This document shows, one piece after another, positions 2,415 through 27,915 of a DNA stretch of 32,498 nucleotides. The notes under the pieces are model-generated. The model worked only from the letters and a program-made list of their open reading frames with translations, had not been told where the DNA came from and did no database searches. Position numbers and translations under genes: made by a program. The stretch is from the IMG/VR virus record IMGVR_UViG_3300032058_000005, positions 1-32,498 of that record. The stretch is one strand, 5' to 3'. The stretch comes from a virus. Position 1 is the stretch's first letter. Each line of letters begins with the position of its first letter.

Positions 2415-3402
2415 CAACTTTACTCCAGTTATAAACATGTACGGACCTATGGACAGGAGTGGCTATGGGCATGCGTACACTGGTTTTTTGCGGGAACTGA
2501 CAAAGCAGGACAAAGTCAAAATACTATACGATGGCTCAGCTTACTATCAGGAAGCAGACATCTTTTTCATTATGCATATCCCCCCGAGTGTGCGACTAAT
2601 AACAAAAAGAAACTACGGGAAAAGGCTAATCCTTTATACCATGATAGAAGCAGAGTCTATTCCGAAGTCGTGGGAAGTAGGATGCAATCTATGTGATGCA
2701 ATAATGACACCGTCTAGTCACAGCACCAGAGTCTTTAGCAATTGTCAACAAAGGCCGGTTTACACTTCACCGCTCGGCATAGATGAATTCTATTGTGTTC
2801 CTAAGAAAAGGGAGTTTCGTGAACCATTCCACTTCGTAATGAGCGGTTCATTGACAGAGAGGAAAAATGTTTCCACACTTTATAGCGCGTTCAAGAAGAG
2901 GTTCTCTGGAGACAAAAATGTAAAGCTTACACTAAGGTACGCGTTTAAGCCTGATATCGATATAGCGTCTACAGAAAACATATCAGTTGTTGTAGAAGAT
3001 TATACGAAGGAAAAGGTATTAGATCTCTACCTTGATGCTAATTGTTTTGTTTACCCTTCCGGTGGTGAGGGTTACGGTCTACCTGTAATAGAAGCTGTCG
3101 CTACCGGTTGCCCCGTTATAGCGACTCGATACTCAGCGATGTGTGATTATATAGACGATCTTTCCATGATATCGTTGGATAACATAGAGCTCACAAAGGC
3201 TATACCTTATCCACCATATAATGAAACAGCAATGGGAGCAAAGATAGACCCAGACGAACTTATATCCAAGATGGAATATGTAATGGATAATTATGATAAT
3301 GTGAGTGAAGCATCATTCAAAGCTTCCAGCAAGGTTCTGGAAAACTATACCATATCGGTTGCAACAAGGAGTCTTGTTGAGAAGTTCTTAATGCTTATAT
3401 GA
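2407..3402 (+). CDS. GT4-type glycosyltransferase
   Basis: This is a 331-residue GT-B fold transferase that most likely uses a nucleotide-sugar donor. The family signature is in the C-terminal domain: YPSGGEGYGLPVIEAVATG (about 216-234), with the two donor-binding glutamates of the EX7E motif at E221 and E229. Residues 146-153 (GSLTERKN) match the loop that starts the donor domain. The N-terminal domain (GYGHAYTGF) would bind the acceptor. Its start overlaps the dehydratase gene by eight bases and no strong ribosome site is visible, so translation is probably coupled. The pairing suggests it transfers the sugar made from GDP-4-keto-6-deoxymannose, but that is inference. The acceptor (virion protein, modified base or host glycan) is unknown. 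Confidence 0.88.
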   Translation: MSNNFTPVINMYGPMDRSGYGHAYTGFLRELTKQDKVKILYDGSAYYQEADIFFIMHIPPSVRLITKRNYGKRLILYTMIEAESIPKSWEVGCNLCDAIMTPSSHSTRVFSNCQQRPVYTSPLGIDEFYCVPKKREFREPFHFVMSGSLTERKNVSTLYSAFKKRFSGDKNVKLTLRYAFKPDIDIASTENISVVVEDYTKEKVLDLYLDANCFVYPSGGEGYGLPVIEAVATGCPVIATRYSAMCDYIDDLSMISLDNIELTKAIPYPPYNETAMGAKIDPDELISKMEYVMDNYDNVSEASFKASSKVLENYTISVATRSLVEKFLMLI

Positions 3403-5242: not shown

Positions 5243-6301
5243 TTATATATCATTTTGTTCAAATATCTTCTTTGTAAGTACTTCAGGATCACGCAACTTA
5301 CTGTCTATTTCATTGAATAGATTCTGATCTTCCAGAAGCTTGTTCACTGAACTCATAAGGCCTGATCCCAGTGATATATCTCCATATGTATACCATGAGC
5401 CTTTGCGCTTTATGATGCCAAGCTTCTCTCCAGTACTTATGAGACTCGCGGCAGGAGTCTTCTGTGGATCAAAGAACATGATAAACTCATCTTCACCATA
5501 AGGTGAGTCTACTTTGCTCTTTACCGCTCTAACTCTAACTATGTTAGCGTAGCTTTCAGATCCAGATTTCAGCGTTTCCTTTCTTCTTAGCTCTATTCTC
5601 ATTGATGCATAGAACCTGAGCGCATTTCCTCCAGTAGTTATCTCAGATGGTCCATACTGTGATGCGCTGGATCGTATCTGATTTGTGAACACAAGCGTTC
5701 TTCCTTCTCTACCAACTACTGGATTTGCTTTCCGTAAGAATTTCGACATCATCCTTGCTTGCAAGGCTATGGAGCTATCTTCCATAGTTGAAGAAAGCTC
5801 ACTTGTAGGTACTAAGCCTGCAACGGAGTCTATACAAACTAGATCTGCACCGTTTACTAGCGCATCATATGCCATATCGAGCGCTTCTTCTCCAGACTCT
5901 GGTCTTGCAATAACAACTGATGGATCTATGCCACACGCCTTGAGCCTCTCTCCTGTCAAAGTGTACTCAACATCAAGGATGAGAATGTTCTTTAGACCTA
6001 TCTTCTGCGCAGAATTGACAATATGAAGCATCAATGTGGTTTTCCCTGAGCTTTCAGGACCATATATCTCAGTAATTCTCCCCTTCGGGATACCACCGAT
6101 CCGAGTAGCTCTGTCAACTCCTATGATTCCAGTCGGTATCGCTTCAGATGTGTCTGGAAACTCATCATCCGAAGGATGCACCAGTGCGCTCTCACCGTAC
6201 TTCTCTTTAGCTTTTTTCACAAACTCTTCAAACGCAGATGCTACTTCTTCTGGAGTACTTTCCTTAGATACTACTTCTTGTTGTTTTCTTTTAGATGCCA
6301 T
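5243..6301 (-). CDS. recA: RecA-family recombinase
   Basis: It is predicted to form ATP-dependent filaments on single-stranded DNA for strand exchange. The 352 residues are the usual bacterial RecA length. Visible features are a basic N-terminal helix region, IPTGIIGVD (55-63), Walker A GPESSGKT (81-88), the LDVEYTL segment corresponding to the IDAEHALD block of RecA, an ACIDSVA-like Walker B (LVCIDSVAGL), the FTNQIR loop and the TTGGNALRFYAS signature. The C-terminal domain (KSGSWYTYGD-like) is also RecA-like. The start at 6301 is chosen over 6319 because GAGAGGAG (about 6308-6315) sits just upstream. It overlaps the end of tmk by 11 bases. The LDVEYTL segment departs from the bacterial consensus, so it is a divergent phage RecA and not a recent host capture. 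Confidence 0.95.
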   Translation of the reverse strand: MASKRKQQEVVSKESTPEEVASAFEEFVKKAKEKYGESALVHPSDDEFPDTSEAIPTGIIGVDRATRIGGIPKGRITEIYGPESSGKTTLMLHIVNSAQKIGLKNILILDVEYTLTGERLKACGIDPSVVIARPESGEEALDMAYDALVNGADLVCIDSVAGLVPTSELSSTMEDSSIALQARMMSKFLRKANPVVGREGRTLVFTNQIRSSASQYGPSEITTGGNALRFYASMRIELRRKETLKSGSESYANIVRVRAVKSKVDSPYGEDEFIMFFDPQKTPAASLISTGEKLGIIKRKGSWYTYGDISLGSGLMSSVNKLLEDQNLFNEIDSKLRDPEVLTKKIFEQNDI

Positions 6302-6899
6302 AGTTAAATCTCCTCTCAATGATATTTAAACACTGGGTGATAACATCATCCAGTGATTGTGTTGCGTCGATTATGATCATGCCATGTTCTTTGGCGATTT
6401 CTCTGTATCTCGTTATCGCTCTTTCTATCTTGTCAAACCTTTTGTCGAAAATGTCGCATTTGTTTTCATTCTGCTGGTTTCTCTCGAGTATCCTTTGCCT
6501 AGCAGTATCTATGTCTACATCAAGGAGGAATGCAATGTCTGGAACGGGAAGATGTGCTTCTTCTACTTCTTTCCTGACTACATCTTCGCGTATACCGTTA
6601 AAAATTGGTTGATAGACCAGCGTGGAGTAGAAGTATCTATCAATGATTAAAAGCGGAGCCGACAAGTTTTCGCTTGTGCGCATTACTTTACACATATCTA
6701 ATATAAATGCATCGAGCATTACGAGTGGTGTCATTTCGATATTTCCAGATTTGGCATTGTGAATCATCATCCCATACACTGTCAACTCTGACGGGAAATG
6801 AATGAGCATAGAAGGATGGAAGAAACTAGAAACAGCTGATGACACAGCAGACTTACCACTTCCATCCACACCTTCGAACACAACAATGTGTTTTCTCAT
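6291..6899 (-). CDS. tmk: Thymidylate kinase (dTMP kinase)
   Basis: It is predicted to phosphorylate dTMP to dTDP with ATP, supplying thymidine nucleotides for phage DNA synthesis. The 202 residues match the family length. Visible features are the N-terminal P-loop FEGVDGSGKS (about 8-17), the DRYFYS motif corresponding to the DR(Y/F)xxS signature, LLDVDIDTARQRI, and a LID-like region (RNQQNENKCDIFDKRFDKI). The longer open frame reaching 7139 is rejected because GGAGGT lies just before the ATG at 6899 and homology begins there. It is the first gene of a minus-strand unit followed by recA, and it faces the plus-strand gene at 6987 across a divergent promoter region. Confidence 0.92.
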   Translation of the reverse strand: MRKHIVVFEGVDGSGKSAVSSAVSSFFHPSMLIHFPSELTVYGMMIHNAKSGNIEMTPLVMLDAFILDMCKVMRTSENLSAPLLIIDRYFYSTLVYQPIFNGIREDVVRKEVEEAHLPVPDIAFLLDVDIDTARQRILERNQQNENKCDIFDKRFDKIERAITRYREIAKEHGMIIIDATQSLDDVITQCLNIIERRFNYGI

Positions 6900-6941
6900 A
6901 TTGACCTCCGCTAACTTATTCGCTTGTTCCAGATCCGATAA

Positions 6942-6956
6942 ATTGTATGATACAAT
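6942..6956. promoter_or_regulatory. Palindrome in the divergent promoter region between tmk and the 6987 gene
   Basis: ATTGTAT-G-ATACAAT is a perfect 7+1+7 inverted repeat in the 87-base gap between two divergent genes. It contains a -10-like box on each strand: TATGAT (6946-6951) on plus, with TTGTTC (6924-6929) 16 bases upstream as a possible -35, and TATCAT on minus. It may be two overlapping promoters, an operator, or both. The pairing of a -10 on both strands recurs in the gap at 27955-27966. Confidence 0.45.
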
Positions 6957-6986
6957 CATAGTAATATCACTTTGTGGGGAAAATAT

Positions 6987-7901
6987 ATGGCATTTGAAGC
7001 AACACTCATGGTAGTCAGATCGAAATCTATCAGTTACAGTGACCTTGTCAAGAACATTACCCCTTTGATGAGAAGCCAACTCAATATGCTTGGTCTTGAC
7101 ATTCAAAAGGAGACGACCATACGCGACTATCTGGCTCATACAAAAAGCTCGAACATACCAAGGTACATACGAGTGCTCGAAAAGCGCTCTAAGGATAATC
7201 CCAAGAGATCAATTCCTATAGACAATGATCCATACGAAGGTGGGATCTTTGTCTCGCCGAACTACGCGATGATCATAGCCTGCGGGTCTACAGATACAAG
7301 CGGAAATCACGTTAGCACGGTATGGATAAACTTTTCGAAAAGACTTACAGCATACTTTCCATCACTCACAAATGTTCCGTTTGCCATCGGCGGACTGCTA
7401 TCAGAGAGAATAGGAAGAGAAGTTCATGTGCTCCATGCCACATCATATAGCAGATCAAGTGACCGATATGCACTGTTCTATAATGGTCGCAATGCTAACC
7501 CACTGAGCGGAAAAGGGGCACTTACGACAGTTAAGAACACGTATGGTCTAGATATAAATGTACTCATGGACTCGGTCGACAGGTGCCTTGCTATCTTATT
7601 TGCACCATATGACATCAATGACGCCCAGGTGCAACTTGAGAAACACAAACAGCGAATTGCTGAATTTGAAAGTCAAGCACAGAACCTTATCATAAGAGAT
7701 AAGCAAGACGGTTCTAACATGGTCGAAAGGTTCCGAAAGGAAAACGAGATACTACTAAGTTCGCTCCAGGAACGGTATAACAGCCTCAAGAGCTCGCTTA
7801 CTATGGACCCCGATGGGATTATCTATCCATTCGTGCTGTGTAAGTATGTAGCTCCATCATCCGACATTCGGGAGATAGTTTTCGGAAATCCTAGCGACTG
7901 A
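6987..7901 (+). CDS. Hypothetical coiled-coil protein
   Basis: This is a 304-residue protein from the ATG at 6987, chosen because GTGGGGA (6974-6980) precedes it; a TTG five codons upstream is less likely. Residues about 1-200 look like a globular alpha/beta domain. Residues about 210-265 are heptad-rich and charged (EKHKQRIAEFESQAQNL and following), predicting a coiled coil, followed by a short C-terminal domain. No family is recognised. It stands alone on the plus strand, and its 3' end overlaps the convergent minus-strand gene by 11 bases. Location beside structural genes allows a virion or chaperone role, but this is unproven. Confidence 0.65.
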   Translation: MAFEATLMVVRSKSISYSDLVKNITPLMRSQLNMLGLDIQKETTIRDYLAHTKSSNIPRYIRVLEKRSKDNPKRSIPIDNDPYEGGIFVSPNYAMIIACGSTDTSGNHVSTVWINFSKRLTAYFPSLTNVPFAIGGLLSERIGREVHVLHATSYSRSSDRYALFYNGRNANPLSGKGALTTVKNTYGLDINVLMDSVDRCLAILFAPYDINDAQVQLEKHKQRIAEFESQAQNLIIRDKQDGSNMVERFRKENEILLSSLQERYNSLKSSLTMDPDGIIYPFVLCKYVAPSSDIREIVFGNPSD

Positions 7902-8885: not shown

Positions 8886-10205
8886 ATGTCAAGCACAATA
8901 ACACTTGATTCTCAACGAAATGGTACTGGAACACGTTTCCTTCCGAAAGAGAACAACGTTCCATTTGGAGACTATATCATTCCAATGCTCTACATATGGT
9001 TCATAGGATCGGGGGGAATGAACAAGGATTACGATATTATTTCAAAAGCCTTTGACTCATTTGTAGAATTTAACCCAGGCGGAGCAGAATCACAGTCTGC
9101 AAAGTCTTTTGTGGTCAATAACGCGACAAAGCTCAAAAGCCTCCTCATTAGCTCCTCATTGAAGAACCAGTCTTTTCTGAGAGCCCTCGTCAGTGCTGCT
9201 ACGCTATCGTGCAGTCAGTATGGTGATAGATTTCCTAAAACAGGTTCGTTCTATAAAGCACCTGACGGTAGTTTCTCTGCTGTTCCACTTTCTTCCGCAT
9301 TTGATGATCCAGAGAAAAAGCTCGCGACAGCCATGGAGATATACTATATTATGTTGTCGGGCGGGCTTATTGACTTTACCGCACAGACAGGGATTAATCC
9401 TATTAATATCTATACCGGTGAGTTCTACACTGAGGACACAACAACCACAACTTCCACCAATGCAAGGATAATAGGCCTCCCATCGTCTGGGATATTCACA
9501 GTAAACAACAGGAAGAAAACAGGGTATTATCAGCGCACGTTCACAGGAGTCGATGCAGTATGCCTTGCATCTACTGGAAATGTTGTTAGCGAATTAAACG
9601 GGTTAACTTCCCTTTCGTGGTCTGTACACCGCGGAAAGTCTACACCAAGGATATTAGGAAAGCCATCACCATCTATACGCTCGCGAGGAGCAAGAACAAT
9701 AGCCGGAACAATGATATTCACAGTTTCTGACCATCACCCTCTTCTAGATCTTATACCTGGTGATATAAGCTCTGTAAGAAGTATGTCTCTTACGATCGGG
9801 CAAAAAGACTGGAGACAGATTATGATGGCAGACCAGCTTCCTCCTTTCGATTTGACGGTCGTCCTCATGAACGAGTATGGTATGTGTTCCATACTCATCA
9901 TATACGGTATCGACGTCGTTGATGAAGGTTCTGTTATATCAATAGACAACCTACTCACTGAAATATCAGTACAGTACGTTGCTGTTGGAATGGATCCTAT
10001 ATATGAAGTGCCGGCAGACGACCTTGCTGGGAACGTAATTGTGGATCCGTACGGTATTGTCAAAGGAAACGGAGAAGAGTTTGCAAGAAGGCGCGATGTT
10101 GTTATGAAAGGATTCGCATATAGCGATTACGAAGCAGCGTATGATGCATACTACAGATCTATAGCTGGGGTATCTGGGGGAGAAACAAGGAGAGTAAAGC
10201 AATGA
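8886..10205 (+). CDS. Virion structural protein paralogous to the tube-like protein at 11134
   Basis: This is a 439-residue protein. Residues about 220-385 align by eye with nearly the whole of the 221-residue minus-strand protein encoded just after the sheath. Shared blocks are F(T/S)GVD, GK-x2-P-x-SxSRG-x-R-x-IAGT followed by a DH-x-PL block, PFDLT/PFDIT, NEYG, and (V/I)NEG/VDEG-x2-IS-(I/M)-D-(N/D)-L. The N-terminal 200 residues are unique to this copy. It is therefore probably a tail component, such as a baseplate, tube-initiator or tube-like protein; the exact place in the virion is unknown. CGAGGAG and AGGGA precede the ATG. It heads a three-gene plus-strand unit with an extended -10 promoter. 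Confidence 0.75.
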   Translation: MSSTITLDSQRNGTGTRFLPKENNVPFGDYIIPMLYIWFIGSGGMNKDYDIISKAFDSFVEFNPGGAESQSAKSFVVNNATKLKSLLISSSLKNQSFLRALVSAATLSCSQYGDRFPKTGSFYKAPDGSFSAVPLSSAFDDPEKKLATAMEIYYIMLSGGLIDFTAQTGINPINIYTGEFYTEDTTTTTSTNARIIGLPSSGIFTVNNRKKTGYYQRTFTGVDAVCLASTGNVVSELNGLTSLSWSVHRGKSTPRILGKPSPSIRSRGARTIAGTMIFTVSDHHPLLDLIPGDISSVRSMSLTIGQKDWRQIMMADQLPPFDLTVVLMNEYGMCSILIIYGIDVVDEGSVISIDNLLTEISVQYVAVGMDPIYEVPADDLAGNVIVDPYGIVKGNGEEFARRRDVVMKGFAYSDYEAAYDAYYRSIAGVSGGETRRVKQ

Positions 10206-11133: not shown

Positions 11134-11799
11134 TTACGGCTGTTGACCCTGAGAAGGTATAACCTGAGGGTTAACAGTATATCCCGTGCGAGAAGCATTA
11201 AAGTTAATGTTAGAGAAACTGTTCTGTTCGAAGTCTACTGTTGACCTATCGTATTCATTGAGTGGTGTCCATGGTGTTCGATGTAGCGCAATGAATGTTG
11301 CCTGACGCTCATTGGTAAGGTCATCCATTGATATACCACCACCTTCGTTGATTATCTCGACACCGATGATAGCACTCCATGCTGCCTGACCGTACTCATT
11401 CTGTGCTATGAGAGTTATGTCAAACGGCCACACCTGGTCCATATAATCTGGAAGAGATTTTACAGAAACGGCCGGTCCTCCATGAACACCCACAGACTGT
11501 GGGTCAAAAAGCCATTTCACTTCATCCTGATGAGCGTAATACTTGTGGTTTTCGTATATATCGTAGAGAGGCTCATGATCAAAAAGAACAAACTGTAACG
11601 TGCCCGCTATACCTCGCTTTCCACGAGATATAGAAACTGGTCTGCTCTTCCCGAAGATGTAAACAGGAACTTTTTCACGTGTTACCGAAACAGCAACGCC
11701 TTGAAGCGTCATTACTGTCATGTCGTCAAACATTGCTGTTATGTCAACACCACTAAATGTTGTGAAAGTTGATACAAAGTGGTCAGAAACTACTCCCAT
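11134..11799 (-). CDS. Putative tail tube protein
   Basis: The 221-residue protein is encoded directly after the tail sheath, the usual position of the tube gene in contractile-tailed phages. It shares most of its length with the C-terminal half of the protein at 8886-10205 (SRGKRGIAGT, PFDIT, NEYG, NEGGGISMDDL), showing a two-member family in this genome. AAGGAGGAAACAC precedes the ATG. It is longer than the roughly 140-170 residues of many tube proteins. Assignment rests on gene order, not on a recognised tube signature; a baseplate protein is the main alternative. It is the last gene of the late unit, with the terminator 15 bases downstream. Confidence 0.65.
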   Translation of the reverse strand: MGVVSDHFVSTFTTFSGVDITAMFDDMTVMTLQGVAVSVTREKVPVYIFGKSRPVSISRGKRGIAGTLQFVLFDHEPLYDIYENHKYYAHQDEVKWLFDPQSVGVHGGPAVSVKSLPDYMDQVWPFDITLIAQNEYGQAAWSAIIGVEIINEGGGISMDDLTNERQATFIALHRTPWTPLNEYDRSTVDFEQNSFSNINFNASRTGYTVNPQVIPSQGQQP

Positions 11800-17435: not shown

Positions 17436-18854
17436 TTATAGGAACTGATAAGAAGCATTAGGTGCACCAAGAGCTACACTGTTGTTGTTTATGAAACTGT
17501 AGTTCTTGTCAACAACAGCATACTTGATAAGACCAACACCTCTGCCTAGCTCTTGTAATGCCATTCCATATCGCTCGCGAACTTTCATAAAGTTCACTTC
17601 ACGATCAGGATCCTTCCATTCTTCCATTACTGGACGCTCTTTCTGCAAGATCAGACCGCACCTGGTACTGTCTGCAAGAATAATGTTTGTAGCATACTTA
17701 CCATTTGCAGGTGTTACACCTGAAGATGCAGAACCACCAGAAACCTTGAAGAAAGGTACCAATGGAGATGTAACCACTTTAACAGCTGCGCCTGTTATTG
17801 CATTTGTAGCAGAGTAAGTTGCACCAAATGGAGTTAAGTTAGGATATGAGTAGTATCCTATGCCAAGTTTCCCGAAAACTGGGTCAACAGGATAATCAGG
17901 TGTAGTTGCTCCAGAGCCTATACCAGAACCGAATTTCGAGAGTGTTGGACCGAACTGACCGAATGGGTCGCCCCAACCTTCAGCAGTTCCGGGAACATAA
18001 GTGATGTTCCTGAAAGCAAGATCACTTATCTCCTTGTCGCGAGCCAGCATAATCCATGCAAATGGATGTATGACTATTGTATCCACGTTGTACCCGCGGG
18101 TGCTCATCCATGTCATAGCTGCTAATAAGTCTTCTATCGTTAGGGTTCCATTGAATTTCCCATCGATGCCACGGCCTGTAAGGCTACCCAGCTGAGAGTT
18201 ATCAGGTTCGTGGTTGTCTGCAAGTACCCATCCTGCGTTCTCATTTAGCAAGTTAACTCCGAGATATTCCTTCTTGTTCAACAGAGCTAACGCAAGGTTT
18301 TTTAACAGGAATGCTACAAGACCCCAGGAGTCTTCCTCCATCATTTCTGATGTTACAGGAATCTTAGCTCCATATTTCTTGATCTCTATAGCAAGCCTAT
18401 ATGCCTGGTCATTCATTGATGGCGAAGCATCCGGGAATTCAGCACCTTCTGGAACTTCTTCTACATTCGATGGGCCGAATGTTCTGAACACAAACTGTGC
18501 GCCCTTCTTGTTAAAGGGTATCGTAGTGAACAAATTGTCAGTTATAACACGGGCTGGAGCGATAGCTTGTGTCAGAAAGACTTCTACCGCTGCATAGAAT
18601 ATCTGAGAGAAGTCTTTCGACGTAATCATATCGCGGATGCTAACCTTTTCTCCGTCGAAGTTGCCGTAGTGGAAGGCATTGACAACCTTTGTAACAAGCT
18701 CTTCGTCACGTTTTATAACAGCTTCGACGAACTCTGGCTTATATGCTCCGTTTGCATCATACACTTCGAAACCATCCCGCTTAACGAGGTTTGCTTCTGA
18801 TTCTAAAGAATCCTTCACACTGTATGAGTGAAGGTGTGTTAACAAGCTTCTCAT
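17436..18854 (-). CDS. Major capsid protein, HK97-fold
   Basis: The 472-residue protein forms the icosahedral shell. Features of the HK97-type family are a long charged N-terminal arm (residues 1-110), FRTFGPSNVEEVPEGAEFP (about 121-140) as the E-loop region, KKYGAKIPVTSEMMEEDSWG, and a helical A-domain segment leading to TIVIHPFAWIMLARD. The start is put at 18854, not 18860: AGGAGG abuts the ATG at 18860 but is six bases from the one at 18854. It lies after the protease/scaffold and the capsid-associated gene, in canonical order, and is followed by a terminator. The N-terminal arm could be cleaved by the phage protease. Confidence 0.9.
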   Translation of the reverse strand: MRSLLTHLHSYSVKDSLESEANLVKRDGFEVYDANGAYKPEFVEAVIKRDEELVTKVVNAFHYGNFDGEKVSIRDMITSKDFSQIFYAAVEVFLTQAIAPARVITDNLFTTIPFNKKGAQFVFRTFGPSNVEEVPEGAEFPDASPSMNDQAYRLAIEIKKYGAKIPVTSEMMEEDSWGLVAFLLKNLALALLNKKEYLGVNLLNENAGWVLADNHEPDNSQLGSLTGRGIDGKFNGTLTIEDLLAAMTWMSTRGYNVDTIVIHPFAWIMLARDKEISDLAFRNITYVPGTAEGWGDPFGQFGPTLSKFGSGIGSGATTPDYPVDPVFGKLGIGYYSYPNLTPFGATYSATNAITGAAVKVVTSPLVPFFKVSGGSASSGVTPANGKYATNIILADSTRCGLILQKERPVMEEWKDPDREVNFMKVRERYGMALQELGRGVGLIKYAVVDKNYSFINNNSVALGAPNASYQFL

Positions 18855-18875
18855 GTACATCCTCCTAAGGGTAAA

Positions 18876-19979
18876 TTAGTAACCAAAAGCTACGTCTACT
18901 AAACCGTAGACTATTCGACCAGTTAATCCGCTTGCTAGGTTAACAACGCTAAAGAAGCTGGATTTCACGTTTGCTGGCGTCGGCGCAACGCTTGTAAGAT
19001 CGGCGAGAGCACGATAGCCGAAATCAAACAATCTTGTGCTGAGTCCAGCGGTAGCCGTGCCCTGAATCTTGCTTCCGGGGAATGTGTCGGTAATTTCATC
19101 GAGATCCTTCACTGCCTGTGAACGCAGTGCAATTATTTTTCCAAAATTGACATTCCCGCTCTTGATAACAAACTTTCCGCGACCATCAACCTGCAAACTC
19201 GCGCCAGAAGCTAAAACGTTAAGGTCATCACCGCTTGTAAGATCGTGTGCCTGTGGAGCATATACAAACTGATGATATCTAGAAACATCAGCCAGGAAAG
19301 CTGCCACTGCGTTTGCGGTAGCCTGGTTACTGCTGTCGTACGCTATTGATATGAACGGCAGTGTGAAGTATCCTTTTGTACACACAGATATAGCCGGATT
19401 AACCGGGTTGTACATATGGAATCTTTCACGAATGTCGCCAAAAGCCCTGTGTAACAGAACACCTAATGGTTTTGTGCCTGCAGCTATTCTATACTTGTCG
19501 TTTGATGTTGGAACTGTGCCGGATGTTGTAAGCACACCAGCATCGCCGTCTATAGAACTATAAGAGAGATCAGACGCTCCGGTTGTTCCGTTACATGGGA
19601 CTAACAAACCTACTGTATCGGTATCATACAGATAGGTATATGGTTTCTGATACTTGTTCCCATCAACGCCTATAGTTACATACATGTTGCCACTTGTGTC
19701 AATGCCTGTTGGAGCGAGAGTAATGTCAGCAAGCAAAGCTGATGACCCGATAGACACTGCTGCTACAACATCTCCTGCGCTCATAACAACAGGAGCCTGA
19801 CTCTGCTGATCAACATACAGTGCTGGTAAATATTTTACAGGGTAAAACTTACCGATCACATCTTTCTGATCGTAACGGGCAACATCTTCCATTGTCCCAA
19901 GTTTGACAATGGTACTATCTTCCTTAAGGGGCTTAATACCGCTATATGCTCCCCCTGTTGGATTAAATGTAAGTGCCAT
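18876..19979 (-). CDS. Putative capsid decoration or head structural protein
   Basis: This is a 367-residue protein, Gly/Ala/Ser/Thr-rich and probably beta-structured, with few cysteines and a composition typical of virion proteins. It lies between the scaffold and the major capsid gene, where large myophages often encode a decoration or capsid-cement protein. Segments such as LDEITDTFPGSKIQGTAT and RIAAGTKPLGVLLHRA resemble short beta-strands with loops. No family is recognised with certainty. ATAAGGAG precedes the ATG at a spacing of about eleven. It could instead be a second capsid subunit or a head fibre. Confidence 0.55.
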   Translation of the reverse strand: MALTFNPTGGAYSGIKPLKEDSTIVKLGTMEDVARYDQKDVIGKFYPVKYLPALYVDQQSQAPVVMSAGDVVAAVSIGSSALLADITLAPTGIDTSGNMYVTIGVDGNKYQKPYTYLYDTDTVGLLVPCNGTTGASDLSYSSIDGDAGVLTTSGTVPTSNDKYRIAAGTKPLGVLLHRAFGDIRERFHMYNPVNPAISVCTKGYFTLPFISIAYDSSNQATANAVAAFLADVSRYHQFVYAPQAHDLTSGDDLNVLASGASLQVDGRGKFVIKSGNVNFGKIIALRSQAVKDLDEITDTFPGSKIQGTATAGLSTRLFDFGYRALADLTSVAPTPANVKSSFFSVVNLASGLTGRIVYGLVDVAFGY

Positions 19980-19996: not shown

Positions 19997-20602
19997 TTAT
20001 TTAATTTTGAAAACAACTGCATTCTTCCGAACTGTCTGCTCCTTTTTTGGACTAGAGCTGATATTCATTCTATGTGAGCGAATATACTCTGCAATATCCA
20101 TTTTCGGAGCATTTTGAGCGGAATCAGTTGTATGGTTCTCATTTGTCTGTACATTTTTATGTACATTACTACTATCATTAGCAATCGCGTCAGCAACGCT
20201 TACTTTGTTGTCTGCTTTATCATCTTCAGCCACTGGTTCAGCACTATTCTGTGCTGGAGCACTATCATTAGTTGATACGTTATCATCGCTATTCCCGGTT
20301 GCTTGATCAGTCTCTGCTGAGCTAGCATCGGGATTGACACTATCATCTATATCTACAGTATCGTTGCTGTTGTTAGGCTGCATCATATCTGCCTGAGATG
20401 TCATCTGCGCTTTTCTTAACTTCTCAAGTTCATCGCTAAGTTCTATTACTTTCTCAGATAATGTTATGATGCTTTTAAGTGTGCTTGCCATTGCAACTGC
20501 ATCTTGGGCGGTGATAGTTTGCTGTGCCTGAGGATTTGCGCTAGGAATATTGCTTGAATCTGATACCGAAGCAGTCGAAATGTTAGAACCTCTGATTGTC
20601 AT
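19997..20602 (-). CDS. Nested in-frame scaffold protein (internal start)
   Basis: Within the protease gene the minus strand reads AGAAGGAGATAACACA immediately before an in-frame ATG at 20602 (residue 282 of the full protein). The SD core AAGGAG is eight bases from the ATG, as good as any start site in this window. Translation from here would give a 201-residue acidic, coiled-coil protein ending at the shared stop. Phage lambda uses this scheme (Nu3 inside C), so a free scaffold is expected. The case rests on this ribosome site alone; no experimental support is available. Confidence 0.65.
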   Translation of the reverse strand: MTIRGSNISTASVSDSSNIPSANPQAQQTITAQDAVAMASTLKSIITLSEKVIELSDELEKLRKAQMTSQADMMQPNNSNDTVDIDDSVNPDASSAETDQATGNSDDNVSTNDSAPAQNSAEPVAEDDKADNKVSVADAIANDSSNVHKNVQTNENHTTDSAQNAPKMDIAEYIRSHRMNISSSPKKEQTVRKNAVVFKIK

Positions 20603-21445
20603 TGTGTTATCTCCTTCTGGTAAAATATCGCTTGCTCCTATATCGTTTGAATCATAGATTGCTATAGAGCCTAAGGTTAGATCATGGTCAGATATAGTAT
20701 CTTGCTTCTTATCAAACACTGTGTTTGAATCAGTAACTACTACTGCTAAAATGGCAGCGCCGGCATCTGCGGGACTGGTTACTATAGAAAGCTCTTCGAA
20801 GGAAGGGTCTGACATTGTATAGTAGCATTTTTTACCATCATAGACCATACCAGGAACATGATCACATGGAGCATTATTGTCGCTTAACACTGTCTCAAGT
20901 GGGTTCTTCCCACATATCGTACATTTCACCTTGTCCCGTGGAAAGTATGCTCCTATAGAAACATGCATCAGTTGCCTGCTTTTCAGAGCATCGATAACTC
21001 TTGTTCCGTCTGGAAGTGATGCGGTTTCTGGGATGTACGCACCCACTACTATGCACCCATCAGCTACACCGTTTGGTGTCTCAACCTTTGACTTCCTGAA
21101 CTCTGCTTTGATAACCCTACCAATGGGATATGAGTTGCTATCATAAAAAAATGAGAAGAATTCGCTGGCAGTTTTATGATTGAACATGAGCGGTTTCCAT
21201 GACGGAGTGTAGTATGTTTTGACAGCTTCGTCCATACCTTTGCTCATGTAGATGATATTCTTAGCGTTCGGAACACCGGTATGTGCTGCTTCTATAACAC
21301 AGACGTATCCCTTCGGCAACCCATGGGTATTAGCAATCTGCAACACCTCTTCTACGAGAGCTTCATTCATTTTCTCTTCAGAGCTCTTAGGTTTCCGGTT
21401 AAGTACTAAAGAGTAGTTTGAAACGATAACTTTGTCATTCATCAT
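19997..21445 (-). CDS. Prohead protease fused to acidic scaffold region
   Basis: This is a 482-residue protein. Residues 1-240 are the prohead serine protease: His90 (PLMFNHKT) and Ser163 in MHVSIGA are the expected catalytic pair, followed by C175-x2-C178, C194-x-H196 (zinc-like insert) and the SFEELSIVTSPADAGAAI segment typical of T4 gp21-like proteases. Residues about 245-482 are acidic, low-complexity and partly coiled coil (IIELSEKVIELSDELEKLRK-like), as in scaffold proteins. An internal start at 20602 would give the scaffold alone. AAAGGAG precedes the ATG at 21445, which is directly followed by a second ATG. A TATAAT (21467-21472, minus) may give an extra promoter. Confidence 0.88.
   Translation of the reverse strand: MMNDKVIVSNYSLVLNRKPKSSEEKMNEALVEEVLQIANTHGLPKGYVCVIEAAHTGVPNAKNIIYMSKGMDEAVKTYYTPSWKPLMFNHKTASEFFSFFYDSNSYPIGRVIKAEFRKSKVETPNGVADGCIVVGAYIPETASLPDGTRVIDALKSRQLMHVSIGAYFPRDKVKCTICGKNPLETVLSDNNAPCDHVPGMVYDGKKCYYTMSDPSFEELSIVTSPADAGAAILAVVVTDSNTVFDKKQDTISDHDLTLGSIAIYDSNDIGASDILPEGDNTMTIRGSNISTASVSDSSNIPSANPQAQQTITAQDAVAMASTLKSIITLSEKVIELSDELEKLRKAQMTSQADMMQPNNSNDTVDIDDSVNPDASSAETDQATGNSDDNVSTNDSAPAQNSAEPVAEDDKADNKVSVADAIANDSSNVHKNVQTNENHTTDSAQNAPKMDIAEYIRSHRMNISSSPKKEQTVRKNAVVFKIK
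20611..20618 (-). promoter_or_regulatory. Internal ribosome-binding site for the nested scaffold
   Basis: Minus-strand AGAAGGAG lies eight bases before the in-frame ATG at 20602, inside the protease coding sequence. It encodes Pro-Glu-Gly-Asp codons there, so partial coding constraint exists, but the match and spacing equal those of the genes' own start sites. Confidence 0.65.
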
Positions 21446-21520: not shown

Positions 21521-21970
21521 TTACTCTATTATCCCTAATAGCTTCTCAAAACCACGCACGATTGAGTCATTTACAGCACTGCTTATAACAGTTTTTGTTT
21601 TCTCAGCGTCGAAGTTACGTAAGGAGCACAGCTGTACGAGAACAGCAAGGCCTTCAGCTTTGTCGGAGATAAATCCATCCATTGCAAGCAGGTAAAACTC
21701 TCTTATGGTGTCGATAGTTGCGAATGTGTCCTCGGCTTGCCTTCCATCTTTTTGACTCTTGAAGCACCCTAACGATTTAGCTTTCCTATATAAACATGCT
21801 CTTATTTTGTCCTTGTCCCCAGGGCCTTTATATCTTCCAAGTAGCGAGAGCCCGGCTCTAACATGGCCACAGTCGTTAGCTGGAAAACTCCTGTCTGGTC
21901 CACAGAATGCCGAATCTGGCAACTTATCCCTCTCCTTAGCGCTCAGCTTTTTGTCTGTAACATGGTTCAT
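21521..21970 (-). CDS. DUF6582-like prohead-protease-associated protein
   Basis: This is a 149-residue protein. The N-terminal 70 residues (LSAKERDKLPDSAFCGPDRSFP, then ND-x-GHVRAGLSLLGRYKGPGDKDKI, and KAKSLGC) match a domain often found beside or fused to phage prohead proteases; the family name is recalled, not searched. The C-terminal 75 residues are helical. Two conserved-looking cysteines at about C23 and C34, with C59 and C69, could bind metal. AGGAGG precedes the ATG by seven bases. It lies between portal and protease, matching that context. Confidence 0.7.
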   Translation of the reverse strand: MNHVTDKKLSAKERDKLPDSAFCGPDRSFPANDCGHVRAGLSLLGRYKGPGDKDKIRACLYRKAKSLGCFKSQKDGRQAEDTFATIDTIREFYLLAMDGFISDKAEGLAVLVQLCSLRNFDAEKTKTVISSAVNDSIVRGFEKLLGIIE

Positions 21971-21981
21971 GTTTAATCCTC

Positions 21982-23586
21982 CTAGTCTTTTCGTGATCCA
22001 GGCGATAACTTCTTACCGTACTGGTTTACTGGTTGCTGTAGTGTTGGGTTAAAGGTCGCAAAGTCTTCAGGTTTAGACTTTACCAAAGCAAGGGGAATCT
22101 GAACTCTGGCAAGATATGTGTCCTCAGAATCTTGTTTAGACAACGGTCTTCGCTTGAGCACTTTCCTAGCTTCGCTTGTTGTAATAAGATTTGACTGATA
22201 GAGATTGATAGCGTTGTTGGATTTCTCGATCATCCTCGACAATGTCATTTCGTTAAACTCGAACGTTACGATAGGATCCCCCTCATCATCTACTGTGGGC
22301 TTTCCTGCATTTGATAGTATATCGCAAATTAGCTGAAACGTTATGGCATTTTCCACTATGGATGCCATGTATGAGCATCGATCTGCTAGGCTATTGTCAT
22401 GGGATTCACTTGTAGCCCTATTAGCAGTGTCCCCTTCGCCAACTATAACTCCAGATGTGCCTGATCCTATAAATATCCTATCCTTGAAATGTTCAATGTA
22501 TGGTATCATGTTTGATATGCCACTCTGCAACCTTACCGATTCTATTACTACTCTGTGATCAGTAGCAATTATTCCGTTCGGCGCCATCGCGGCTATCTCA
22601 TCAACAATCATTTGAGTTTCCCCCCTTCTACAGGGTGCTTCCGGGGTGCCCACTTTGGCATGGAGGAGCGGTGAACCATACTGGAAAGCAAGCAGTTCTA
22701 CGGTTTCTTCCAAGCTTCTCAAAGTAAGTATGTCATCTATTATCTGTATACAAGGCGGTTCTGGGTAAATTTTTGTCCCAGGGTCGGTAAAGAATCCGAT
22801 GATACAGTCGCTAACTGGGATCTGATCTTGCTTTGCTAGGCCACTAAGCGGTATGTTTCGTACGCCGTTAGTTAAGTTCTCTACGTATACATATCTGATA
22901 GATAAGCTATCATCGACTACAAACGATACATACGGGATGTCGAGAGGAACAAGTCTTTTAATGCTCTTCCCGTATGATGTTTTCTGCCATTCCTTTTTGA
23001 CAACAAAGAATCCATACTTCAGGAGGTCGGTTAATATTCTGGATATTAGGCTAAGGAGCGGGATAACAGAAGATCTCTGATACTCTGACATTACTGCTCT
23101 TACAAACCTCCCGTATACCTCTTCTTCTGACACAAAGTAAAATCCGTTCCTCAGTGTTGTCTCTACTTGCCTTCCTACAGAACGGGAAAAGTAGCTTTCT
23201 ATCGAATAATAGCGATCTATATCTGAGTATTTGTATGGACTCCGGACAATTGTCATGTTGTTGTTGGTCTTTACCATTATCGGAGTGCCGACAAAAGCAT
23301 CTCTGACATTCATGTAGGATGAACCTTCGATAGTCTTGAGTCCTTTTCTAACAACGGAGCTGTAAGACTCGCTCTGTACAAGTCTAAATATTTTCCTATC
23401 CCGGTCAATAGCGTTCTTGAAAAGCTTAATCTGCTTTGTTGCTGGTTTTTGGGAATATCCGTGGTCAGAAAGGATGGCTTCTATACGCCTGTCAATCTCG
23501 GCCCTAAGCTTCTCTTCTATAGTCACATCTATATCATTTTTTAATGCGTTATAGAGAGCGTTTTTCGCTTTCGTGATTATATTCAT
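21982..23586 (-). CDS. Portal protein
   Basis: The 534-residue protein forms the dodecameric DNA-entry vertex, binding terminase during packaging and the neck afterwards. Evidence is position (after terminase, before protease and capsid), length, and the pattern of a basic helical N-terminus, a central alpha/beta region (LLKYGFFVVKKEWQ, VPLDIPYVSFVVDDS) and a long C-terminal helical stem/clip (QLICDILSNAG, MIEKSNNAINLYQSNLITTSEARKVL), with an exposed flexible C-terminus. AAGAGGT precedes the ATG. Its start overlaps the stop of the 882-residue gene as ATGA, so the two are coupled. Confidence 0.85.
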   Translation of the reverse strand: MNIITKAKNALYNALKNDIDVTIEEKLRAEIDRRIEAILSDHGYSQKPATKQIKLFKNAIDRDRKIFRLVQSESYSSVVRKGLKTIEGSSYMNVRDAFVGTPIMVKTNNNMTIVRSPYKYSDIDRYYSIESYFSRSVGRQVETTLRNGFYFVSEEEVYGRFVRAVMSEYQRSSVIPLLSLISRILTDLLKYGFFVVKKEWQKTSYGKSIKRLVPLDIPYVSFVVDDSLSIRYVYVENLTNGVRNIPLSGLAKQDQIPVSDCIIGFFTDPGTKIYPEPPCIQIIDDILTLRSLEETVELLAFQYGSPLLHAKVGTPEAPCRRGETQMIVDEIAAMAPNGIIATDHRVVIESVRLQSGISNMIPYIEHFKDRIFIGSGTSGVIVGEGDTANRATSESHDNSLADRCSYMASIVENAITFQLICDILSNAGKPTVDDEGDPIVTFEFNEMTLSRMIEKSNNAINLYQSNLITTSEARKVLKRRPLSKQDSEDTYLARVQIPLALVKSKPEDFATFNPTLQQPVNQYGKKLSPGSRKD

Positions 23587-26231
23587 GCTGAACCTCTTAG
23601 TATATCAAATATGTGCAACATTGATTCGCGTGCCTCATTAATGCTCACACCGGAGCGGTCCTGGAGAAGCTTTATAAAGTCGTTGAATGTTGCTTTTTCT
23701 CCTAAGTCTGCCTCCTTAACTATGGTACCAAAATTTTTCATTGATTGCACAACAATATCTTCTGCTGTACCGCTGAGTGGACCAAATGAACGGGATATTG
23801 CTCCTGGAAGGTTGTCAATTGCGCTTTTCTCAGATTCTGACACTGGGAACTCGTGATCGGTAAGCGGGTTAATCATTTCAAACATTGACCGCGCTGTTAC
23901 ACCAGACTCATTAAGGAGATCATCAATATCTTTTATCTGGCGATACTGTTCTGACTCTTGGTTCTTGAGTACCTCGTCTACTAGCTCAGATGAATTGTAA
24001 CAGTCCTTAAGACCGATGATAAGGTCTATGAGAGACTTAAGTAGGTTTGAAAGGGCTTCTAGCGTAGCTAACCTTGTTCTGCAAAGGTAGATATCGTTTA
24101 TCAAAACGAGGTCATTTATAGAGAAGTCGATAAGCCGCATGACGCTGTTAACAAGGGAGAACTTTAGGTTATTCAAATTACAGATAAGGAAGTCAAAAAG
24201 TTTGTCTATCCCAAAGCACTCATTGGCTAGCGCAAGCCTTACTTCTGGTATACCCCGAATACCGCTTAGCACCACGTCTATCGGTCCTAGTATGATATCT
24301 ATGAATTGTGCCAATCCATTTGATATTGTTAACTTAATGAGTTCCCACATTTCGTGAAGGGGCAAACGTAAACCCTGAAGGAGTAGTGGACGCTTTAGTG
24401 AGTTTATGTATGTATCAACTATAGCTTTCATTATTTCTAATATTGCAACGAACTTCTTAACTTCTGCGGAATTTTTTATGTCTGAAGCCCATGTAAGCTT
24501 CATTTCGTGTCTGAGATTGTTTGCAAATGCTTGTGAATCTTGAACCTGCCCTGTTCCTACACATGTTTGACAGATATGTCCATCTATATGGCCGGTACCT
24601 TTGCAAGTGTAGCATGGGACCATTTTGTCGTTGCATATTCTTCCGCCAGTTTCTACAAACCTCCTTACTAGTGTTGATGCAAACACAAGCAAATATACCC
24701 AACAACAAAGCTGTCTCGATGACCCCCACAGTGTCAGGTTCGCTGTGTTTGAAACAATTCTGTCAGCAATACCTAATAAATTGCCTACAGCCTGGTCAAG
24801 GTGTATCATAAATTCTCCGATAAACTCAAGGGGGGATGTTCCGGCTTGTGTTATCACGATCGCTGGATCTGCGGTAGATTTGAGCCACTTCCCAGCGTTA
24901 GAGTTTATAGCATTTATGATATCCTCTTCTGGAGTCGTTTTATCATCGCTGGAGTATCCAAAACAGTCGAAAGGACCTTTTCCCCTGGAAAAATTTGTAA
25001 ACGTGTATGAGTTATTTGTCAGAGCACTTTTCACCTGTTGTGACATCAACGTAGCACTGTCGGCAGCACTGATAGCATTGTTTAGCGGTCCAAAGTTCTG
25101 GTAACCATTTACACCATATTTCGATCCCGCTTTCGCAATGAGATAGTCTGCAACCACCTTTGCTTTAGCTTGTTCTTCTGGAGTAGGTTCCCTGTCCTCA
25201 TCTATATTGTCCTCAGCGCAGATATTACCTCTCATGTATCCTTCTGGGTCAAGTTCTGCGTTGATAGCTGCTTGTAAACACGATGTAAAGGAAAAGTTGT
25301 TGCTATAAAATTGCCTATTGTCGAAAAACAGAGGTTTTGTCGTACAACATTCTATATATCTGAAGGAGAACTGCTTCTCTAGATCGTCTGAGCTTTTTAC
25401 CTTTGTGTTGCAATCTTGTGGTGGCTCATTTGGTCCCCTTTTTTTACACCTATACCCTACTATACTCAGCAGTGTTTCCTCTACCCTCACGAGTAGCCCA
25501 GATATCATATCGCCTAACTTGAACTCAAAGCCGAAACGCTTCCCTGCAATTTTCCACTTCTTGCCTATTTTTAGTTTTCCCCTAAAGAAGCCGCAGAGAT
25601 ATCCAATCGTGTAGTACACCATTATTACATAGGACAACTTAAGTACTATGACAAGAAGCTTTATCCCATACATCAATATTCCGTGTTTTCCGAGGTATGA
25701 CTTTCCACTCAGCTTATTGTTGAGATAAAGTGATATAGCGACGTCGTCAAAATCCGATGCCGATTTGAGAAGCTCCTTGTCGTAGTTATTCGTGTAGAAT
25801 CCTGCTACACGGAAGATACATCTTTTTGTCTCATATGATAATGTGTAAACTGGGGACGTTACGTCTTCTGGAAACTCTATGCCTGTAAGGTCAGTTATAT
25901 ACTGAATCACATATGGTGGCGCGTCTCCAATGTAACCATCTATATCAGCAGTTGATACGTCGAGCAGGCGAGATGCTCTTTCTTTTAACTCTTTAGCTAG
26001 TAATTCGTACTTGTCAAATACTACGTACCATCCTTTTAAGATGTCTGGTATTTCCTCTTCAGCTACCTTCTCCACTTTGCCTGCGACTTTTTCGACTGGT
26101 GTTTTCACCTTTTTGCTTGAACGTGGCGCACCTATGGTTTCAAATCCTCTTTCAGGCGAAGGGATATTTGGCTTATAGAGGAAGTCTTCAGTAGTATTAT
26201 CATATAAATGTTCTAGATCGTCTTTGGCCAT
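23583..26231 (-). CDS. Large Cys-rich protein with DnaJ-type zinc motif and hydrophobic segments
   Basis: This is an 882-residue protein of unknown function. The N-terminus is charged and probably disordered (1-60). Hydrophobic stretches at about 184-215 and 508-521 may be membrane-spanning or buried. Residues 540-561 read CYTCKGTG-x6-CQTCVGTG, two CxxCxGxG knuckles as in the DnaJ zinc-binding domain (C540, C543, C554, C557). Many other cysteines are scattered over 138-510. The C-terminal 280 residues are mainly helical. It overlaps the terminase end by 32 bases and the portal start by four. AGAGGG precedes the ATG. A virion, ejection or packaging-associated role follows from position only; no J-domain HPD motif is present. 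Confidence 0.7.
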   Translation of the reverse strand: MAKDDLEHLYDNTTEDFLYKPNIPSPERGFETIGAPRSSKKVKTPVEKVAGKVEKVAEEEIPDILKGWYVVFDKYELLAKELKERASRLLDVSTADIDGYIGDAPPYVIQYITDLTGIEFPEDVTSPVYTLSYETKRCIFRVAGFYTNNYDKELLKSASDFDDVAISLYLNNKLSGKSYLGKHGILMYGIKLLVIVLKLSYVIMVYYTIGYLCGFFRGKLKIGKKWKIAGKRFGFEFKLGDMISGLLVRVEETLLSIVGYRCKKRGPNEPPQDCNTKVKSSDDLEKQFSFRYIECCTTKPLFFDNRQFYSNNFSFTSCLQAAINAELDPEGYMRGNICAEDNIDEDREPTPEEQAKAKVVADYLIAKAGSKYGVNGYQNFGPLNNAISAADSATLMSQQVKSALTNNSYTFTNFSRGKGPFDCFGYSSDDKTTPEEDIINAINSNAGKWLKSTADPAIVITQAGTSPLEFIGEFMIHLDQAVGNLLGIADRIVSNTANLTLWGSSRQLCCWVYLLVFASTLVRRFVETGGRICNDKMVPCYTCKGTGHIDGHICQTCVGTGQVQDSQAFANNLRHEMKLTWASDIKNSAEVKKFVAILEIMKAIVDTYINSLKRPLLLQGLRLPLHEMWELIKLTISNGLAQFIDIILGPIDVVLSGIRGIPEVRLALANECFGIDKLFDFLICNLNNLKFSLVNSVMRLIDFSINDLVLINDIYLCRTRLATLEALSNLLKSLIDLIIGLKDCYNSSELVDEVLKNQESEQYRQIKDIDDLLNESGVTARSMFEMINPLTDHEFPVSESEKSAIDNLPGAISRSFGPLSGTAEDIVVQSMKNFGTIVKEADLGEKATFNDFIKLLQDRSGVSINEARESMLHIFDILRGSA

Positions 26232-27915
26232 GTAACCCTCTAGTTCTATGGAATAGATTTCTGTTATTTGCTATGACTTCGGATGTGAAGTTTTTGTAAT
26301 AGAATGGCTTATCAATTGGATCATTACTTCTTTCAGAAAAGCTTGAGAAAATAGGGGTCGATGCAACTTCTGATCTTATGAGGTTGTCCCTGACCAGACC
26401 AACTTCGCGGACGAATTTATCATATCCATGGATACAGACTTGCAAAGCACTAAGAGAATGTGAGTCGTCACTATAGATGAACCCTCCGTCTCTAGAAAGG
26501 CTTTTCCTGCGGAAGTTTCGTATCTCTAATCCTATCTTTTGTTCTTCTTCTGGAGGTAAGGCTAATATGGTTTCCAGATACTGGCCGAGCAACCCGACTA
26601 TTCTGTACTTGACTCTCACTTTCATGTACTCTCGATGTTGAACTTCGCCACTCTCAGTCTGATAATCGAGGGTTATCGTATCATAAAGGTTAGAGTCCAC
26701 CACATTTATAAGTCTTTCTGGATCGAACCCTTTCGTAGATAGTTCTAGCTTTAGCATCTCAATCTGTGTTGCCCCATACCCTGCGTCGACACTGACTACC
26801 GCATACTTATTCTCTTCAATAAGATTTATGATATGCTTAACTGCACTCAGCTGGGTGTACTCTTCATATGCAATCTTATCATTTCTCGTAAGCAGGAGTT
26901 TGTTCCACATGTATGCTACTTCAACTATTCTTACCCCATTCTGTGGTGTGTTCCAGTCCACACCGAGGAATTTCTGAGCGTTTCGATATTCTGATGTTTC
27001 TCTTACAGATTCTACGGATGGAAAAATGCCGTCCATCCCCCATCTTTCAAAAGCGGCGTCGATAACCTCTTTCTTATATACGGCACCTTTTGGTTCAACA
27101 AACTCGGCTAAAACTTCTAGCTTCCAAGTTACTTCATCATGAATAACTGCCCTTAATCTCGGTTCTAGAGCATCCCAGTTTTCGTCTAGAGTCGATGGTA
27201 TGTGAAACTCAGCAGCATCTTTGGTATACTCCGCTCGGCATTTTTTGCAGAACTTTTCGAACCAGCTTCCTGTCTCGCCACTTGGTGTAGAAGACGCCCA
27301 CAACCTGATAGATGGATTTCCCTTCAGTATGCCAGTGATTACCGGCCAAGCTTTGTCTGGCATGTAATCTGCTTCGTCTACGTAAACATGTGTTGCGTAT
27401 TGCCCACGGGCTTTGTCGGGATCCTTGTTCATCGCAAAAAAATAGACAACGTTTCCGTTGCTAACAAAAAGAGAATGGTCGTATGGTATGTTCACGGAGT
27501 CCTTATTCCTGTTGTGTTGTCTCATACTCAACATCATGGCTATGTCTGTTCCGCGTACAAGATTGGATATGATTTTGAGCATGCGGTTCATGAGCGGAAT
27601 ACTTGTTACAAATACCATAGCTACAACATTCTTCTTGAAGCACAGTGTATGTAGAATGTCTACACAGAGGTGAACAGTCTTTCCACTCTGACGTCCAACG
27701 CGGACAGCTCTATCTTTACACGGCGACCGCAAGAGCTCATAGAATGCTCTTTTTACCTTGAAATTGGATTCTCCGGTATCTGGGTGTTTAAGGTGAGACT
27801 CTGCCCACAGAACCGGGTCGTCTGCTTCTTCAATAATTTTGATAGCATCACCATTCCCAGTCTCTATGGCTGCCTGTATCAGCGATTGTTTTGTTTTCTC
27901 ATCTATTCTGTACAT
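26200..27915 (-). CDS. terL: Terminase large subunit
   Basis: The 571-residue protein is the packaging motor: an N-terminal ATPase pumps DNA and a C-terminal RNase-H-fold nuclease cuts concatemers. Walker A is GRQSGKT (74-80), Walker B is YVDEAD (178-183), and SSTPSG (208-213) is the coupling motif. The nuclease acidic residues are probably D320 (GVDWN), D377 (SVDAGYG) and D484 near SDDSHSLSALQ. Only a weak ribosome site (GGAAC) precedes the ATG, which suits a protein needed at low copy number. It heads the minus-strand late unit, under an extended -10 promoter at 27956-27967. No small subunit is found immediately upstream. Confidence 0.93.
   Translation of the reverse strand: MYRIDEKTKQSLIQAAIETGNGDAIKIIEEADDPVLWAESHLKHPDTGESNFKVKRAFYELLRSPCKDRAVRVGRQSGKTVHLCVDILHTLCFKKNVVAMVFVTSIPLMNRMLKIISNLVRGTDIAMMLSMRQHNRNKDSVNIPYDHSLFVSNGNVVYFFAMNKDPDKARGQYATHVYVDEADYMPDKAWPVITGILKGNPSIRLWASSTPSGETGSWFEKFCKKCRAEYTKDAAEFHIPSTLDENWDALEPRLRAVIHDEVTWKLEVLAEFVEPKGAVYKKEVIDAAFERWGMDGIFPSVESVRETSEYRNAQKFLGVDWNTPQNGVRIVEVAYMWNKLLLTRNDKIAYEEYTQLSAVKHIINLIEENKYAVVSVDAGYGATQIEMLKLELSTKGFDPERLINVVDSNLYDTITLDYQTESGEVQHREYMKVRVKYRIVGLLGQYLETILALPPEEEQKIGLEIRNFRRKSLSRDGGFIYSDDSHSLSALQVCIHGYDKFVREVGLVRDNLIRSEVASTPIFSSFSERSNDPIDKPFYYKNFTSEVIANNRNLFHRTRGLHGQRRSRTFI

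Follow-up and report, generated by a model that had tools for sequence, protein, structure and literature searches.

Tailed-phage head modules are generally regarded as well catalogued. The locus described here is placed in the lineage around phages 0305phi8-36, ME3, KLEB27-3 and MTATph1. In 0305phi8-36, gp117 is the terminase (PMC4168068), mass spectrometry identified 55 virion proteins, and one of two indels with candidate curly-fibre genes consists of orfs 119-121 (PMC2147016). In the record of Acinetobacter phage ME3, terminase and portal are traced by homology to 0305phi8-36, with YP_001429612 named as the portal relative. Bacillus phage KLEB27-3 gp011 (484 aa, no cysteine) and Moorella phage MTATph1 CDS0002 (322 aa, one cysteine) occupy the same post-terminase slot as the protein studied here and carry N-terminal YxP-like motifs (INYRPRF and LDYNPEL, respectively), but have no detectable cysteine core.

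The window is the whole stretch of viral DNA that was analysed (32,498 nt; IMG/VR record IMGVR_UViG_3300032058_000005). An 882-residue ORF, which a first-pass annotation had placed at 23583-26231 without giving the strand, is real and lies on the minus strand. As that annotation had stated, the gene is flanked by the terminase and portal genes and overlaps both: its start shares 32 nt with the terminase gene and its stop shares 4 nt (ATGA) with the portal start. An SD-like AGAGG is found 5' of the starts of both the 882-aa gene and the portal gene. The features of the region are as follows.

26200..27915, minus strand, terminase large subunit (PHROG terminase, E 2.6e-25; Pfam Terminase_6N, 2.8e-12)
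23583..26231, minus strand, 882-aa portal-coupled Cys-rich protein, the window protein (ORF call and homologues L135, L087/L136, L137, L138, L139 and L146)
26163..26183, minus strand, N-terminal motif FLYKPNI (hxYxPxh), residues 17-23, common to other post-terminase proteins of the lineage
25593..25658, minus strand, hydrophobic helix 1, residues 192-213 (dG -0.59; range across the family of seven, -0.6 to +1.4)
24963..25595, minus strand, Cys-rich stretch, residues 213-423, with eight invariant Cys (213, 262, 274, 295, 296, 318, 338 and 423)
24654..24710, minus strand, hydrophobic helix 2, residues 508-526, holding the invariant CC (C509 C510)
24549..24614, minus strand, double CxxCxGxG, residues 540-561, which may form one zinc site and occurs in 2 of 7 members
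23988..24470, minus strand, helical core, residues 588-748 (C672, C684, C744), common to a remote superfamily
21982..23586, minus strand, portal protein (PHROG portal, E 7e-19)

Several other genes of the window were noted. A 482-aa gene (19997-21445) matches phrog_16951, of unknown function, and is a candidate protease/scaffold gene by position only; in 0305phi8-36 the scaffold gene is nested in the protease gene (PMC2147016). Between this gene and the portal gene, a 149-aa Cys-rich product (21521-21970, minus strand; 3.4% Cys; phrog_16160, unknown function) carries FCGPDRSFPANDCGHVRAGL, and its relatives are similar. The likely major capsid gene is located at 17436-18860 (Pfam Phage_capsid_4). 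The 'major head protein' family phrog_9206 is matched by two genes in opposite orientation, 8886-10205 (plus strand, E 1e-28) and 11134-11799 (minus strand, E 6e-35), which resemble paralogues of each other; the label given by PHROGs is open to doubt. Farther away, a GDP-mannose 4,6-dehydratase gene (390 bits) and, after it, a gene for a group 1 glycosyltransferase (1335-3402, plus strand) are possibly involved in phage sugar modification, and a RecA-like recombinase gene with a TTG start overlaps a thymidylate-kinase-like gene (5243-7139, minus strand).

Relatives of the window protein were collected by portal-guided fetching from IMG/VR, followed by further scans. Six were obtained (L135, L087, which is the same as L136, L137, L138, L139 and L146), of 819-873 aa as called and at 31-47% identity, and all of them sit between terminase and portal. 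Together with the window protein they form the seven-member family W. The homologues keep the frame from end to end, so an assembly artefact, which the first-pass annotation had allowed for, was rejected; no sign of assembly errors was seen in the frame. Pfam, PHROGs and NCBIfam contain no entry for this family. The window protein itself gave no PHROGs match beyond its cysteine segment, no PDB sequence match, and no match in 50,697 phage records or genome contigs. Its description as unrecognised stands: these searches returned no match to a characterised family, and fold searches with the model of a relative gave no significant match.

The pre-portal proteins of related loci were sorted into groups A to F, a superfamily defined in this analysis. 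HHalign connects group A with B, D, E and F, and group B with C. When W (six sequences) was compared with pooled A+D+E+F, the match reached a probability of 95, an E-value of 2.8e-8 and a score of 75, against a score of at most 28 for 30 column-shuffled decoys. Pooled profiles alone gave strong matches, those to single-group profiles being weak, and the link between W and the superfamily is therefore good but not beyond doubt. The superfamily is marked by a CC...C...C pattern in a helical core, represented in the window protein by C509 C510, C672 and C744. Its last spacing measures 72-77 residues in groups A, D and F and in W; in groups B and C, C-x9-C takes the place of CC. The window protein thus combines the pre-portal slot, the CC...C...C core and a significant pooled profile match. 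ME3 gp18 (ME3_18, AND75179.1; a hypothetical protein of 554 aa) belongs to group C. It resembles the window protein in lying 3 nt before the portal and in having conserved cysteines and one membrane-capable helix, but it is undetectable by BLAST, has C-x9-C in place of CC, lacks the zinc insert, and is related to W through pooled profiles only.

An AlphaFold2 model of the window protein (six W sequences) had a pLDDT of 41, and that of the group A relative L007 (18 sequences) a pLDDT of 61. All fold matches of the L007 model in the PDB had E-values of 1 or more, and its VIA-align rows were generic helical (Z up to 8.2, rmsd about 50), and no fold is assigned on this basis. In BFVD, the group A model came closest to A7KUP1, a viral protein of 431 aa (E 0.015, probability 0.99); this match is not significant by E-value and has a TM-score of 0.30 and an rmsd of 23. 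A7KV18 has been assigned to phage 0305phi8-36 (PMC3175470); A7KUP1, from a nearby accession block, probably comes from the same phage and is taken as a lead only.

The first-pass annotation had viewed the gene as inserted between two normally adjacent genes. This proved wrong for the lineage. In 66 non-redundant related loci with both genes present, terminase-portal adjacency was never observed (0/66) and the gap was never below 1355 nt (smallest 1.36 kb); with the slot always occupied, the insertion reading is unsupported. At 40 of these loci the portal is immediately preceded by a superfamily member, whose end lies between -37 and +71 nt relative to the portal start. Because terminase and portal profiles were used to collect the loci, this proportion is not an unbiased census. 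Additional proteins of 780-836 aa with 16-18 Cys occur in the slot at L088:2979-5489 and L096:1178-3520, the latter with a weak beta-helix/G8 match. Intein-like long inserts were also seen in the terminase large subunits of L139 (6979-10017), L146 (1-2652), ME3 and KLEB27-3.

The window protein diverges in step with the portal. Between the window and the six relatives, protein/portal identities were 47/45, 40/42, 38/38, 39/40, 34/34 and 34/35% (for instance 47/45% with L135, 40/42% with L087 and 34/34% with L139), and the supported branches of the two trees are compatible. Core genes behave in this way, unlike extras picked up recently. The result also bears on the idea that the slot is variable and encodes a fibre or head appendage, comparable to orfs 119-121 of 0305phi8-36. 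Such an origin would fit the extra genes found in the slot at some loci and the post-terminase (gp117) genes of 0305phi8-36, which include the orfs 119-121 indel (PMC2147016, PMC4168068), with the relative of the ME3 portal, YP_001429612, five numbers on. However, the remote relatives of W hold a fixed position at 40/66 loci, W itself evolves together with the portal, and its core is helical, making an appendage unlikely.

At the level of sequence, these comparisons establish a conserved family with a fixed pre-portal place, gene overlap, divergence equal to that of the portal, separable modules and invariant cysteines. On this basis the window protein is an undescribed core protein of a poorly known large-phage group; the proposal that it is an undescribed, well integrated component beside the portal is borne out by the gene overlaps, by relatives in the same place and by the want of a characterised family. 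Its fixed pre-portal place (40/66), portal-like divergence and fixed cysteines make it a probable component of the DNA-entry vertex of the head, and not a chaperone inserted there. We estimate a probability of about 0.5 that it acts as a low-copy partner of the portal vertex, either an assembly factor or an internal, possibly ejected, head protein. Against this reading, KLEB27-3 gp011 is annotated as hypothetical, and several of its neighbours are called structural.

The window protein contains 20 cysteines (2.27%), where more than fifteen had been announced; the other head and tail genes of the window have 0-1.6%, bar the 149-aa gene. Outside the double-motif insert, 15 of 16 cysteines are invariant across the seven W proteins. 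In the seven-way alignment, 15/20 cysteines are invariant compared with 121/882 residues overall (14%; Fisher p 4e-10), and no invariant histidine was found. The hydrophobic segments noted earlier correspond to two computed membrane-capable helices (508-526 and 192-213), kept in all seven members with dG values of -1.2 to +1.4. Six other head and tail proteins of the window had no membrane-capable segment (dG 1.9 or more). Glycophorin A (-1.8) and these six proteins served as checks of the dG scale. Strongly basic residues follow helix 1, so that by the positive-inside rule the Cys-rich stretch would be kept in the cytosol, and disulfides of the secretion type are not favoured.

These helices bear on the two forms that a portal-vertex partner could take. 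The T7 proteins gp14/15/16 and the P22 proteins gp7/16/20 are ejected proteins that enter the host inner membrane and aid DNA entry. That the window protein is likewise packaged at the portal vertex and ejected is possible but tentative: it is a large helical protein encoded beside the portal, diverges like a structural gene and has two membrane-capable helices in 7/7 members, one with the invariant CC, but most of group A lacks these helices. Moreover, no known ejection protein was matched in Pfam, PHROGs or the PDB, fold searches with the relative's model gave nothing significant, and such a pore is less clearly needed by contractile-tailed phages. In the other form, the protein would remain outside the virion and start prohead assembly on the portal while associated with the membrane, in the manner of T4 gp40, a membrane-associated helper of this step. 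The gene overlaps, the SD-like sites and the hydrophobic helices are consistent with this role, as is KLEB27-3 gp011, which is in the same place without a structural label. The window protein is, however, far larger than T4 gp40 and shows no detected homology to it, and the KLEB27-3 labels may rest on incomplete proteomics; this form is about as tentative as the first.

The annotation had also drawn attention to a CxxCxGxG-x6-CxxCxGxG motif without a J-domain. The motif is genuine (CYTCKGTG-x6-CQTCVGTG, 540-561) and is more than chance, since the homologue with 47% identity keeps it; Pfam finds no J-domain at E<=1. In the seven-way alignment, the segment is an insert of about 34 residues restricted to the window protein and L135, the relative closest to it; the two pair in the tree with a support of 100/98. 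CxxCxGxG was found in none of the other terminase-portal slot proteins checked in related loci, and the double motif is absent from the wider superfamily. Gain of the segment in this pair is the more economical reading, and it is probably a late, dispensable addition.

DnaJ/Hsp40 chaperones are recognised by a J-domain with HPD and by four CxxCxGxG repeats forming two zinc sites, whereas the window protein has two repeats. Pfam DnaJ_CXXCXGXG (PF00684) scored 18.0 bits, below its cut-off of 32.7. The best model for the segment was that of anti-TRAP (RtpA, NCBIfam NF058604), a small protein of about 53 aa with a zinc domain (E 4.9e-6 in L135 and 1.2e-4 in the window protein). Its scores of 22-27 bits are far below the curated cut-off of 65, and the window match (22.1 bits, local, 538-564) covers 27 residues of an 882-aa protein, which is neither small nor above the cut-off. 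A DnaJ-like zinc chaperone for portal or packaging would account for the double motif and for both sub-threshold matches. Nevertheless, the motif is peripheral, being missing in 5/7 family members and in the superfamily and nearer to anti-TRAP than to DnaJ; there is a single zinc-type module and no J-domain, and the family functions without need of the motif. The chaperone reading is thus unsupported and very improbable.

The N-terminal module and the Cys-core are separate adjacent genes in L094, L101, L131 and L103, and remotely in L107 and L020. They are fused as one protein in L105 and L110 (BLAST E 1e-42 to 1e-115), which suggests that the two modules touch. At many loci the first long protein after terminase carries an N-terminal hxYxPxh motif, the Cys-poor KLEB27-3 and MTATph1 proteins among them, compared with 23/825 other ORFs; this enrichment is descriptive, as the regular expression was drawn up with examples already in view. 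The 367-aa gene that precedes the capsid gene (18876-19979, minus strand) starts with MALTFNPTGG, and its homologues keep DLFYNPTGG/ELYYQPSGG, a form similar to the YxP motif. A lineage-wide extension of the portal-partner reading is speculative: a short N-terminal docking peptide might recruit interchangeable bodies to the portal vertex, the Cys-core version being a membrane-inserting, thiol- or metal-held conduit or an initiator of head assembly.

As a portal-vertex partner, the window protein would be a vertically inherited head or packaging protein of the lineage around 0305phi8-36, ME3, KLEB27-3 and MTATph1, and its production would keep step with that of the portal. Its YxP peptide would dock onto the head machinery, and metal or thiol bonds of the cysteines would hold the helical core. 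Through its hydrophobic helices the protein may touch the inner membrane, either during portal-initiated prohead assembly or upon ejection at infection, and the CxxCxGxG insert would add one local, dispensable zinc clamp. Taken together, the portal-like divergence, the place beside the portal and the lack of a database entry point to a component of the DNA-entry vertex that has been missed, in a large and mostly metagenomic lineage where the gene lies beside the portal in most members.
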